Part shown: positions 17,477-21,411 of the stretch, piece by piece | How positions within the stretch are numbered: the stretch's first letter is position 1 | How the letters are laid out: every line of letters starts with the position of its first letter | Source of the DNA: Sporomusa sphaeroides DSM 2875 | Lineage (GTDB): Bacteria; Bacillota; Negativicutes; Sporomusales; Sporomusaceae | Reading direction: 5' to 3' | NCBI RefSeq assembly: GCF_001941975.2 | Contig: NZ_CP146991.1 | Coordinates: forward strand, 2,218,524-2,282,523 | DNA: 64,000 nt | Translations under genes and position numbers: made by a program | Notes under the pieces: model-generated | What the model was told of the DNA's origin: nothing | Databases searched by the model: none | Seen by the model: the letters and a program-made list of their open reading frames with translations, nothing else

Positions 17477-18034
17477 ATGGCTTATCTATGCCCTGAAGAA
17501 GTATTAGCTGCTATTGGAACAGGGGAATTATCACCAATAGAAGCATTTAAAAAACTACGTGAAATTGAAACTAGTACTGGCGGTGATTTTGCCAGTGCTC
17601 AGTCCAATGTAGAGGAACGGATTGAAAAAATTCTCCATGAGCTTGATAATCTTATCGGCTTATCTGAGGTAAAAAAGCTGGTCAGAGAGATATACGCATT
17701 TATTGAAATTCAAAAACGCCGGGAAAAAGAGCGTTTAAATACTGAACCGTTGGTACTGCACATGATTTTCAAAGGTAACCCCGGTACAGGCAAAACTACA
17801 GTGGCCAGGATTATGGGCAAGGTATTCCGGGAAATGGGAGTATTGTCACGCGGGCATCTTATTGAAGTGGAACGGGCAGATCTGGTTGGCGAATATATTG
17901 GTCATACCGCCCAAAAGACAAGAGAACAACTCAAAAAAGCTTATGGGGGTATCTTGTTTATTGACGAAGCCTATTCATTAGCCAGAGGCGGTGAGAAGGA
18001 TTTTGGCAAAGAAGCCATCGATTGTATGGTGAAA
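17477..18034 (+). CDS. spoVK: SpoVK, N-terminal part (gene interrupted)
   Basis: 186 codons encode the start and AAA+ core of stage V sporulation protein K: Walker [10 protein letters not shown] at residues 100-108, Walker [16 protein letters not shown] near 158-172 and the [11 protein letters not shown] segment at the break. Unexcised, the frame continues seven codons into foreign DNA (ending in PWKQSSR) and stops at 18058. That truncated protein lacks sensor 1 and the arginine finger. Joined to codons from 21004 on, it makes a 321-residue protein close in length to Bacillus SpoVK. SpoVK is a mother-cell ATPase needed for spore maturation. Confidence 0.93.
18029..18034 (+). other. attL crossover core (GTGAAA)
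   Basis: The hexamer at the left spoVK break is identical to the one at the right break. Serine recombinases exchange strands at a central dinucleotide within such a shared core; the exact two bases within this hexamer cannot be chosen by eye. Confidence 0.8.
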
Positions 18035-18077
18035 CCGTGGAAGCAAAGCAGCAGATGAACCGGCTGGCGTGCAGGAT

Positions 18078-19601
18078 TCATTTTAATTTGAGCATAACAT
18101 TGATTTCAGGCCGGCTGCCACGGCCGCGGGTATTATCTATTCGTTCAACAATAATGCTGTCGATTATGGCTCGTAAGGCGGCTTTTTTTTCAGTTATAGT
18201 GAACTCGGTTTCCTGTATTTTAAGGTCAATTTTTTCAATAACTTCGTTTAGCGAAGGCGTCTGAGGGATAGCGGCTAATTCAGTTTCATAGGATTTTTTC
18301 AGGTGCAAAATGGTGCTGAGTTGTTGCCTAATGTCTTGTAATTGAGTTTCGACTTCCACCTCTGACAATATCTTTTGGTGAAACCAGCGAAGCACAGCAG
18401 TTTTTTGTTTTGTCAGCTCCTTTTCAGCTTTGGTTAGTTGCTCTAATGCCATTTCATACTTCTGAAGGTCTTTACGACCGGCAAATTCCTGAATATATTC
18501 GCCGATCTTAACCGGATTATAATAGTGTTCCAGCAAATACTTGAACACATAGGTATCTAGTACTTCGGTAGGAATCTGCCTGGCTATACAGGATTTCCGG
18601 CCGGAACAAGCATAGGATGCACTTTTCCGGCTAATGCAGGCATAATAACTGTGCTCTTTGCCGCCGGAACGGGAGATTACCATGGCTCGCCCGCATTTCG
18701 CACAGCTGACAAGACCCTGTAAGAGATAATTGTGCTTTAGATTGCGTTTGGCAAGGTTCTTATTTTCCCGGAGCTGCTGTTGTGCGGCCTGCCAGGTCAT
18801 TTCATCAATAATTGCCGGAACAAATACAGGTATCCACTCCGACTCCGGTCGCAGAGTTCGTCTTTTCTGTTTCAAGCCGATTTTTTCATAGCGATATTTC
18901 ATGGAATACAAAACACCTTTATACAGGGTATTGGTCAGTATCCTATGTACGCTGGAAACAATCCAGGCGTTTTTAGTGCGGGGAGAAGGGATACCCCGGG
19001 CATTAAGCTCTTTGCAGATTTTGGCTGTCCCCATTTTTTCTTTAACCATAAAGTCAAAGATCAAACAGACTATTTCGGCCTCTTTCTTATTAATAACATA
19101 AGTGCTGTTTTGGGGATCAAAGGTGTAACCAAATGGTTTAGTATCACTAATCACCAGCCCTTTAGCTGCTTTGCCACGTTTACCGCGCATGGTACGCTCT
19201 TTGATTTTTTCCTTTTCAAGTTCTGCCAATAAACCGCGGATCCCAAACATAAACTTACCGTCTGCTGATTGATCGTAATTTACCACTACAAACTTCAGTT
19301 CAGCACCAGACTTGTCAATTTCTTCGGCAATGATCAGCTGATGCAGCAAATTTCTGGCCATCCTGTCCGGGTCATAGAAGATAACTGCAGCAAACTGCTT
19401 AGCTTTTACTGCTGCACGTAAGCGGGTAAGGGCCGGACGTTCGATAAACTCTGCCGAATAGCCGTCATCAACGAACTCTTCCACCGTAACAGCCCGCAGT
19501 TCATCGGCATATTTTCGGCAAGCTTCAAGCTGAGTCTCGATGGAGTAGCCTTTTTCTGCCTGTTGATCGGTTGAGACACGGGCGTAAATAGCTACTTTCA
19601 T
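18078..19601 (-). CDS. Large serine recombinase (site-specific)
   Basis: The 507-residue protein has the resolvase catalytic domain at residues 1-140, with the nucleophile in YARVST (Ser10) and the arginines of DPDRMARN. It continues with the Recombinase domain (KRGKAAKGLVISDTKPFGYT onward), a zinc ribbon near residues 298-335 (CAKC, later YYAC and YACSGRKSC) and a coiled coil near 370-460. This is the family of SpoIVCA and SprA, which excise skin elements. Its stop lies 43 bp from the left junction, with AAGGGGTG before the ATG. It should catalyse attL x attR exchange to repair spoVK. Confidence 0.95.
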   Translation of the reverse strand: MKVAIYARVSTDQQAEKGYSIETQLEACRKYADELRAVTVEEFVDDGYSAEFIERPALTRLRAAVKAKQFAAVIFYDPDRMARNLLHQLIIAEEIDKSGAELKFVVVNYDQSADGKFMFGIRGLLAELEKEKIKERTMRGKRGKAAKGLVISDTKPFGYTFDPQNSTYVINKKEAEIVCLIFDFMVKEKMGTAKICKELNARGIPSPRTKNAWIVSSVHRILTNTLYKGVLYSMKYRYEKIGLKQKRRTLRPESEWIPVFVPAIIDEMTWQAAQQQLRENKNLAKRNLKHNYLLQGLVSCAKCGRAMVISRSGGKEHSYYACISRKSASYACSGRKSCIARQIPTEVLDTYVFKYLLEHYYNPVKIGEYIQEFAGRKDLQKYEMALEQLTKAEKELTKQKTAVLRWFHQKILSEVEVETQLQDIRQQLSTILHLKKSYETELAAIPQTPSLNEVIEKIDLKIQETEFTITEKKAALRAIIDSIIVERIDNTRGRGSRPEINVMLKLK

Positions 19602-19622
19602 TTTTTCACCCCTTGCCTGCGG

Positions 19623-19781
19623 CTACTCAGCTTGGGACAACTGAAGGCGTTGCAGTAACCCTGCAACAAGCGGTGACATAAATATCTTACTATACTCATC
19701 ATGCTTATTAGGATTTTCATTTACTATTATTATTTTAATAGCGGCATTTATCGCTTTTTTCGATGTATCATGCTCTCTCAT
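19623..19781 (-). CDS. Small protein, candidate recombination directionality factor
   Basis: The 52-residue frame begins MREHDTSKKAINAAIKIIIV and ends LLQRLQLSQAE. It has a strong ribosome site (GAGGTGATG) six bases before its ATG and ends 21 bases before the recombinase start, so the two are probably cotranscribed. Large serine integrases need a small partner to excise DNA; in skin-like systems that factor is a protein of about 55-70 residues encoded on the element (SprB, CD1234). No sequence match is claimed. The role is inferred from size and place. Confidence 0.6.
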   Translation of the reverse strand: MREHDTSKKAINAAIKIIIVNENPNKHDEYSKIFMSPLVAGLLQRLQLSQAE

Positions 19782-19899
19782 AGTTCATCACCTCAGTTAA
19801 TCCTATGCCAGAGCTGGTTGTCTGTTTGCCAGGATTTTCAACCATAACTTCAGCAATGAGGCAGGCAGAGGCTGATATGGCACAATTAAATAAACTCAT
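19768..19899 (-). CDS. Possible 43-residue leader ORF
   Basis: The frame begins MSLFNCAISASACLIAEVMV and ends across the start of the 52-residue gene (stop inside its fourth and fifth codons). No good ribosome site is visible before its ATG, which lies inside the first palindrome. It might be a translated leader or chance. I see no known family. Confidence 0.25.
   Translation of the reverse strand: MSLFNCAISASACLIAEVMVENPGKQTTSSGIGLTEVMNYERA
19800..19827 (-). promoter_or_regulatory. Weak sigma-K/sigma-E-like promoter for the small ORF and recombinase
   Basis: Reading the minus strand, AAAC is followed after 16 bases by CATAGGATT, close to the mother-cell sigma-K pattern (AC, 16-17 bases, CATA-N3-TA) with one mismatch. 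Transcription from here would start just before the GAGGTG ribosome site of the 52-residue gene. Mother-cell expression is what a skin-like recombinase would need, but the match is imperfect. Confidence 0.3.
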
Positions 19900-20009
19900 A
19901 ATTTTATTGTGAGTTTAGAAAAAACATGCTACAATAAACTCATATAACAGTAGTGAGTTTATTGATTTTGCTGGATTAACTACTCACTGTTTATGTGTGA
20001 GTAGTTAAT
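19891..20009. promoter_or_regulatory. Three inverted repeats (operator array) in the divergent region
   Basis: Two repeats have the form TAAACTCA-N11-TGAGTTTA (19891-19917 and, with longer arms, 19932-19964). The third has 13-base arms ATTAACTACTCAC and its complement around a nine-base spacer (19975-20009). All share the ACTCA/TGAGT half-site, and the first two have the same 11-base spacer, as expected for one dimeric regulator. They overlap the promoter of the 170-residue gene. Confidence 0.65.
19907..19935 (+). promoter_or_regulatory. Promoter of the 170-residue orphan gene
   Basis: TTGTGA and TACAAT are separated by exactly 17 bases. The -35 box lies in the right arm of the first palindrome and the -10 box touches the second, so a protein bound there would block RNA polymerase. 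Confidence 0.6.
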
Positions 20010-20047
20010 AGTGGCGGGAAAGAAATGAATTGGAGAGGTAGCTAACC

Positions 20048-20560
20048 ATGCACATTGAGGTACGGAAAAACGGAACGTTTTATTTAAAAGACAGCACCTA
20101 CAACCGTGAAACAAAACTTCCAAAAAACACATCAATTTATCTTGGGTCAAATCCCATACAGGCAAGAAGTAAGCTTAAAACACTTACCGATGATTTGGCG
20201 CTGCTTAAACAAATACCTGATACCTTGTTATACGAGATAGAGCTTGATAAAGCCATCAAAAATCTGCAAAAACTGAATCATTTACAGACTGCCGGTGTAG
20301 CCCGGCTGATTAAGGAGTATTTACAGGAGCTTCTGCAGTCCAAACAATTTATTACTAAAGCAAGGGAGGGAGTTCTTGCTCCCACTGCCGATTGCCCGGA
20401 TTGCCGCTTTAAACAGGCAAACCATTGTGACCACTTTCACCAAAATTTTATAACAGGCAATATTAAATATAGGGACAAGTCTTTACGTTGTCCGGCTTAT
20501 GAGCCTGGACAAATAAAATCTCCCATAGGTTCAATTAAGCTGCCACGTGATTTCAGATAG
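20048..20560 (+). CDS. Orphan Cys/His protein of the spoVK element
   Basis: The 170-residue protein is not recognised. Residues 1-45 (HIEVRKNGTFYLKDS, then SIYLGSNPIQARSKL) look like a three-stranded beta unit with a helix, a shape seen in arm-type DNA-binding domains of recombinases and transposases. The middle is helical. The C-terminal third has CPDC, NHCDHFH and RCPAY, a likely zinc site. GGAGAGG lies 12 bases before the ATG. It could be a regulator of the element, the owner of the operators upstream, or a second recombination factor. Confidence 0.7.
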   Translation: MHIEVRKNGTFYLKDSTYNRETKLPKNTSIYLGSNPIQARSKLKTLTDDLALLKQIPDTLLYEIELDKAIKNLQKLNHLQTAGVARLIKEYLQELLQSKQFITKAREGVLAPTADCPDCRFKQANHCDHFHQNFITGNIKYRDKSLRCPAYEPGQIKSPIGSIKLPRDFR

Positions 20561-20561
20561 T

Positions 20562-20598
20562 AACATTACAAATATTTCCTGGAAATATTTGTAATGTT
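20562..20598. other. Near-perfect palindrome with 18-base arms
   Basis: The arms (left arm AACATTACAAATATTTCC) flank a single central base and start two bases after the orphan gene's stop. No T run follows, so it is not a standard terminator. It may form a very stable RNA hairpin that ends or protects the transcript, or be a DNA-level palindrome. Confidence 0.7.
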
Positions 20599-20627
20599 GG
20601 CGTGTTTATGAAGCTCATCCTTTATAT

Positions 20628-20905
20628 CGTGTTTATAAGTTTTGCGTGCCAACACAAGACCCGGCACGGGCGACTGTCATCTGATAACTCCCGTAACCCT
20701 CCGGCCATTGCCGGAAAAAGTGTTCCGTAGGAGAAACGCCGGGCGGTATTCTGTTAAGAAATCCGTACTGTTTGAGCGCAGTGAGTTTACGGATTTTAGG
20801 AATGCCGCCTGGCTTTTCAGCTTTTGGAGGCTTCGGACCTAGACCTTAGCTAAAGGAAGTTCCGCGCTTCGCTTGGAACTAAGCGATTCACACAAGTTCT
20901 AGCGT
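20628..20905. other. Folded non-coding segment at the right end of the element
   Basis: Several stems can be drawn. GCCGGGCGGTATTC (20738) pairs with GAATGCCGCCTGGC (20800) over 14 positions with two G-U pairs. Inside it, AAATCCGTA pairs with TACGGATTT. Smaller hairpins are TCCGGC-CATT-GCCGGA and AGTTCC with GGAACT. No convincing reading frame fills it. The inner AAATCCGTA hairpin resembles short REP-like repeats, so part of the segment may be a repeat rather than a functional RNA. No known RNA family is recognised. Confidence 0.5.
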
Positions 20906-20997
20906 CGCGTTGCTCCTAATAGCTTGGTTTTCTGCTTATGGAGCGATGCCAAAAGTAAAACATATCTCTTTTTATGCCTGTTTGTATCCTGAGTCTC

Positions 20998-21003
20998 GTG
21001 AAA
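20998..21003 (+). other. attR crossover core (GTGAAA)
   Basis: The second copy of the junction hexamer. To its right the spoVK frame resumes with ACTATGGAAGATCAT (TMEDH). Confidence 0.8.
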
Positions 21004-21411
21004 ACTATGGAAGATCATAAAGATGAGATTATTCTTATCTTAGCCGGTTATCAGCAAGAAATGGAAAAATTTATGCAGACTAATCCGGGACTGCATTCCC
21101 GGTTTCCGATTCACATTGATTTTCCCGATTACAATAGACAGGAATTGCTGCAAATTGCCGAACAGTTATGTGCAAAACGCCAGTATCAGCTTACTGTTCA
21201 GGCAAAAAGTGCGTTATTACATTCGCTAAATCCGCCGGCAAACAATAGTGATGATAAATTCGGCAATGCACGCACGGTAAGGAACATTATTGAGAAAGCG
21301 ATAAGGCGGCAGGCTGTGCGCCTTATCAGTAAGCATTCTACCACCAGAGAAGAATTGATGGTCATAGAACCAAGGGATATTACGGGGGTGGAGCCATGCG
21401 AGAATGTGTAA
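21004..21411 (+). CDS. spoVK: SpoVK, C-terminal part (gene interrupted)
   Basis: 135 residues plus stop carry the rest of the AAA+ ATPase: TMEDHKDEIILILAGYQQEM (sensor 1), the arginine-finger segment NPGLHSRFPI and the small helical lid domain with a NARTVRNIIEKAIRRQ helix (sensor 2 region). No ribosome site precedes it, and the local upstream frame is element DNA, so it is probably expressed only after excision. It overlaps the start of the GTPase gene by 16 bases, which ties downstream translation to spoVK. Confidence 0.92.
   Translation, partial: TMEDHKDEIILILAGYQQEMEKFMQTNPGLHSRFPIHIDFPDYNRQELLQIAEQLCAKRQYQLTVQAKSALLHSLNPPANNSDDKFGNARTVRNIIEKAIRRQAVRLISKHSTTREELMVIEPRDITGVEPCENV

Follow-up and report, generated by a model that had tools for sequence, protein, structure and literature searches.

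A small recombinase-bearing element interrupting spoVK in Sporomusa sphaeroides and relatives, predicted to be excised during sporulation

The window, a 64,000-nucleotide stretch of the Sporomusa sphaeroides DSM 2875 genome, contains spoVK in two parts, located on the ORFs at 17477–18058 and 20974–21411. The gene is broken at 18029/20998 with a gap of 2,969 bp, and the hexamer GTGAAA is found at both breaks (18029–18034 and 20998–21003), 2,969 bp separating the two copies. These coordinates agree with the first-pass annotation, which had described the same split and the same repeat. Past the break, the left ORF adds a few foreign residues before a stop at 18056–18058. The features of the locus are listed below.

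17477–18028, plus strand: spoVK 5' part, residues 1–184, with Walker A and Walker B; the ORF continues to the stop at 18056–18058
18004–18055, plus strand: attL, predicted exchange at GT 18029–18030 within GTGAAA; its right half, CCGTGGAAGCAAAGCAG, agrees with the attP arm found in relatives
18078–19601, minus strand: large serine recombinase, 507 aa, with Resolvase, Recombinase and zinc-ribbon domains; ARVSTDQQ, catalytic Ser10
19623–19781, minus strand: 52-aa ORF adjoining the recombinase, kept in 17/17 elements; candidate recombination directionality factor
19786–19824, minus strand: conserved promoter-like block preceding the 52-aa ORF, CAGACAACC..GCATAGGATTAACTGAGGTGATG, from an alignment of seven elements
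19892–20004, no strand: a sigma-A-like promoter in front of the 170-aa ORF, surrounded by three 25-bp palindromes (likely an operator array)
20048–20560, plus strand: 170-aa ORF without assigned function, present in 4/17 elements
20972–21022, plus strand: attR, with P arm CCTGTTTGTATCCTGAGTCTC followed by GTGAAA at 20998–21003
20998–21411, plus strand: spoVK 3' part, from VKTMEDHK to the stop, with sensor 1, arginine finger and AAA lid

Fusion of the two parts in silico at GTGAAA yields 321 codons and a stop with no residue changed, as the first-pass annotation had claimed, and the fused product passes the curated cut-off of the NCBIfam model for stage V sporulation protein K (TIGR02881; 423.8 bits against 422.95). 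The left half carries Walker A (GNPGTGKT) and Walker B (ILFIDEA), and the right half contains the AAA lid domain identified by Pfam, together with sensor 1 and the arginine finger, identified by motif; the earlier assignment of these motifs to the two halves is thus borne out. An intact second spoVK, which that annotation had regarded as incompatible with its reading, is absent from the genome (5.0 Mb, 2 contigs, 99.99% complete), where the top match among other AAA proteins has an E-value of 9e-5. The gene immediately upstream resembles spoIVB by eye, and the neighbourhood therefore looks like a sporulation locus.

The element encodes the 507-aa large serine recombinase on the minus strand, the 52-aa ORF located 21 bp upstream of it, and the 170-aa ORF on the plus strand. 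With its Resolvase, Recombinase and zinc-ribbon domains, the recombinase belongs to the large serine integrases, and it matches the PHROG 95 integrase with an E-value of 5e-111. Assignment to the SCC cassette recombinases (CcrA/B/C) was rejected at 141.5 bits, compared to a cut-off of 900 for the CcrB/CcrC model. A phage origin was likewise not adopted, as the best phage records share 28–33% identity and viral contigs gave one weak match, so that no close relative was found. The element in the window contains no phage structural or replication genes; the recombinase is accompanied only by the two ORFs, neither of which has a convincing named family in Pfam, NCBIfam or PHROGs. It is also the smallest of the elements surveyed. 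The three palindromes (19892–19916, 19936–19960 and 19980–20004) are of the type ACTCA-N-TGAGT and are likely operators of a repressor; similar ones are found in S. ovata.

The attP site deduced from the two ends reads CTGATTTGtATCCtgGGTTTTGTGAAACCgtGGAAgCAAATCAG, an imperfect 44-bp palindrome centred on GT. This GT is the dinucleotide identical across 16 attL and 16 attR sites. Given the mismatches in genomes G003 and G009, no other dinucleotide within the repeat can serve as the exchange point for all sites. In family f7, the valine codon is free to differ between attL and attR at its wobble position (GTG, GTA, GTC, GTT), with GT constant. The crossover point is therefore predicted to be GT, narrower than the shared GTGAAA. 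In f1-type elements, the element side of the att sites retains 1.2–1.7 bits per base over about 25–30 bp and then drops to about 0.3 bits. The half-sites are thus kept next to DNA that is turning over, which indicates that selection maintains them for the recombinase.

In a survey of the order (28 genomes; recombinase orthologs at E ≤ 1e-120), spoVK is cut at the same codon in 14 genomes. The orthologous recombinase is found in exactly these 14, each time within the gap. Comparison with uninterrupted orthologues, which the first-pass annotation had proposed as a check, gave 11 genomes of the order with a continuous spoVK, all of them lacking the recombinase. The 14 split genomes are related and do not represent 14 independent events; the six from f7, for example, form one clade. 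Two genomes with spoVK broken between contigs (G415 and G366) were left out of the split count. Within the same family as S. sphaeroides, the gene is split at this codon in 6 of the 11 spoVK-bearing genomes. The recombinase lies beside a spoVK half in Sporomusa ovata DSM 2662, S. silvacetica DSM 10669 and S. acidovorans Mol, as well as in Propionispora sp. 2/2-37, a Pelosinus MAG and a Selenomonadales MAG. The recombinase and the small ORF (50–63 aa) occur together in all 17 elements. The earlier reading of the locus as a skin-like element in spoVK is supported by its anatomy, by selection (see below) and by this co-occurrence; its scope has to be widened, since the interruption recurs throughout the order and is no one-off.

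Across a sample of 399 genomes from the phylum, nearly all spoVK matches are single and uninterrupted. In G139, from another family, spoVK is cut at the same codon by an insert of about 75 kb with a different recombinase (27% identity); judged by its sequence, this insert is an independent second origin at the same codon. In G415, two contigs (L092 end, L093 start) stop precisely at the spoVK site and overlap by 18 bp, ATAGTCAAAGCCATGGAA; no element is seen, but the pattern is what an insert that is mixed or was left unassembled would produce. G366 was rejected as an interrupted gene because its contig break lies elsewhere than the site. An otherwise continuous spoVK in G012 (L094) has a frameshift near Walker B, which could be either a sequencing error or a real loss.

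A different arrangement is found in S. ovata (G005), where the spoVK halves share a contig but are separated by about 290 kb and lie on opposite strands, and the att sites are inverted. The complete genome G007, from a relative, has an intact spoVK and, about 254 kb away, a counterpart of the S. ovata recombinase module (93% identity), in which the recombinase has internal deletions, the small ORF is lost and two attP sites are present. The right arm of the second attP runs into DNA of the S. ovata attL side. Flanking anchors place an inversion of this interval (about 254–290 kb) between G007 and S. ovata, with its ends at the att sites. Recombination at the spoVK site thus appears to have restored the gene in nature, by inversion in one lineage. 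Tentatively, and with somewhat less than even confidence, spoVK of S. ovata may be restored in development not by excision but by an inversion of about 290 kb between the inverted att sites, G007 being a lineage locked in the flipped state with the gene intact. Its recombinase would then have decayed after spoVK was restored and it had ceased to be needed. If the G007-like state were ancestral and the recombinase disabled later, this would be the same reaction in reverse. The S. ovata arrangement may also be a draft assembly error, against which the complete G007 genome holds the matching product. Between the two chromosomal attP sites of G007 (L095:2269 and L095:4474), which are 2.2 kb apart, lies a small cassette of two short ORFs, a hint that cargo is acquired when integrations at att sites occur in tandem.

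The 2,969-bp insert is, very probably, a minimal, domesticated spoVK-intervening element whose excision restores spoVK in the mother cell during sporulation. From assemblies that depict the integrated state only, we infer the excision, its restriction to the mother cell and the role of the 52-aa ORF as directionality factor. In the proposed mechanism, a small factor encoded by the element, probably the 52-aa ORF, would turn the large serine recombinase towards excision, and the recombinase would join attL to attR at the central GT. In the sporulating mother cell, the insert would leave as a circle and the spoVK reading frame would be restored, and the forespore would retain and transmit the element. 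Because the mother cell is bound to die, the element would persist in the germ line.

Apart from the recombinase, the small ORF is the one gene shared by all 17 elements, and known systems need, besides a large serine recombinase, a small directionality factor produced in the mother cell; the small ORF is therefore the candidate for this role. It has no detectable similarity to known directionality factors in Pfam, NCBIfam, PHROGs or the PDB, and its structure model is a single helix of low confidence (pLDDT 72, pTM 0.38). In SPbeta, SprA and the 58-aa SprB suffice for excision in sporulation (PMC4191935), and the directionality factor of the C. difficile skin element, CD1234 (72 aa), is under sigma-E and SpoIIID (PMC5025042). 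Upstream of the small ORF, the block CAGACAACC-N(6-7)-GCATANNATTAA is present in 7/7 f1-type elements with few substitutions. Its −10 (like CATACAnT) resembles a sigma-E −10 and its GACAA a SpoIIID box, which would be compatible with expression under these regulators. The spoVK promoters lack this block, and a promoter element common to spoVK and the small ORF was looked for and not found.

Of the interrupted spoVK genes, 15 could be joined, and each yields a complete reading frame of the usual length, free of stops and frameshifts. The median dN/dS of the left/right halves is 0.019/0.055 for interrupted f1 genes, 0.016/0.048 for uninterrupted f1 genes and 0.040/0.061 for f7; these values are rough, as silent sites are saturated in many pairs, and pN is equally low in interrupted and intact genes. 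Although the right half lacks a conserved start, it is constrained to the same degree as in intact genes. Such values would not be expected of a dead gene; both spoVK halves are under strong purifying selection. The recombinase is constrained as well (dN/dS 0.08–0.10). The recombinase and SpoVK trees are congruent over f3 and f7, whose elements have cargo in common (an exonuclease and a secreted protein), and the split has therefore been inherited vertically in these families over a long time. Gain, loss or transfer in f1 would account for the partly discordant trees there, so that the element also moves horizontally.

That same partial congruence in f1, where interrupted and uninterrupted species are mixed, indicates that the element is or was mobile, and some spore-formers lack spoVK (PMC3533761). 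Both observations would suit an ordinary mobile element that inactivated spoVK, with the halves a recent pseudogene and excision an occasional mobility. Such an origin is improbable: the constraint on the halves matches that on uninterrupted genes with silent sites near saturation, none of the 15 interrupted genes has acquired a lesion, the split is kept with vertically inherited cargo in all six f7 and two f3 genomes, and the att half-sites are maintained despite turnover of the adjacent DNA. Excision could also be real but untimed, a low-level phase variation throughout growth, as is partly seen for yin in yabG, where some cells show excision whatever the stage of growth (PMC10747680). We regard this as unlikely, if less so than a pseudogene, because retention across family-level divergence better suits excision in a dying mother cell, random loss would leave empty sites within f7, and all seven f1-type elements have, ahead of the small ORF, the promoter-like block with its sigma-E-like −10.

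Least probable of all, SpoVK might function as a split protein made from two polypeptides, with DNA rearrangement unnecessary. The right half would be translatable in several elements from an in-frame ATG in the attR P arm (TATGCTGATTTG..), but this ATG is missing in S. ovata and the f7 elements, and the left halves carry unrelated foreign tails. Moreover, a split protein would not require conservation of the recombinase and its sites, and G007 retained an intact spoVK while losing its recombinase. Developmental excision is hence the preferred reading, and the element very likely acts like skin. The locus has the features of skin-like elements: a split whose joining restores the frame, a recombinase, attL and attR with core and half-sites, and no second copy of spoVK.

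Sporulation genes reported as interrupted are sigK, spsM, spoVFB, spoVR, gerE and yabG. Neither spoVK as an interrupted gene nor such an element in Negativicutes was found in the open literature, in line with the earlier suggestion that the target is new, although a previous report in subscription papers is possible. The skin element in sigK of B. subtilis and C. difficile (PMC5025042) is likewise an in-frame interruption of a mother-cell gene with a large serine recombinase; it is larger and prophage-derived, and the small factor of the spoVK element matches no solved or catalogued family. The gin element in gerE of Bacillus cereus ATCC 10987 is also non-prophage and in a mother-cell gene, which is restored in sporulation by a serine recombinase and an extra factor (PMC5595907). 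It is found in Bacilli and comprises 28.6 kb with three recombinases, compared to 3 kb and one recombinase for the spoVK element in Negativicutes. Having no phage structural genes, the element in the window appears to resemble gin more than a prophage.

SPbeta in spsM, with SprA (YokA) and SprB (YotN) (PMC4191935; PDB 9dxh, 9dxd), shares the recombinase family (51.7 bits to YokA), and the spoVK element is likened to its logic, in which a recombinase and a factor of about 58 aa are sufficient; SPbeta is, however, an active phage in another gene, and its recombinase is only distantly related. The yin element of C. botulinum V73, whose excision restores the late sporulation gene yabG (PMC10747680), is a prophage described as unique to its strain, whereas spoVK elements occur order-wide. 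The spoVK element appears to fit the sporulation gene-intervening class in every sequence-testable feature except the identity of its directionality factor. The nearest recombinases outside the order (42% identity) are in prophage-like elements of Desulfosporosinus metallidurans (L078) and Peptococcaceae CEB3 (L077). Each has a divergent 71–72-aa ORF beside it, possibly a directionality factor of the same type; the flanks lack spoVK, and the adjacent gene looks by eye like the 3' part of mntH/Nramp.

With this element, spoVK and, by the searchable literature, the class Negativicutes would join the short list of sporulation genes under DNA-rearrangement control. The unit is unusually small, consisting of one recombinase, one small ORF and two att sites. 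Annotation may wrongly label spoVK a pseudogene in these species. The relatives form a graded series, from the 3-kb element through stable 4.5-kb vertical lineages and 20-kb cargo carriers to the inverted form and the reverted form with a decaying recombinase, which opens questions on how such elements originate, are kept by selection on sporulation, gather cargo and die.

The cargo of several larger elements was noted by appearance. The 7.7-kb spoVK element of Propionispora sp. 2/2-37 (L079) has apparent thiS, thiG, thiH and thiE genes of thiamine synthesis, and the 20-kb element of G011 (L034/L035) an apparent BREX-like cluster (a large ATPase and methyltransferase-like proteins) with a RadC-like gene. 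The element of G009 (L033) has an apparent pyruvate:ferredoxin oxidoreductase, a phosphotransbutyrylase-like gene, a butyrate kinase and a sigma-54 regulator; with these identities, it would represent metabolic cargo within an excisable element.
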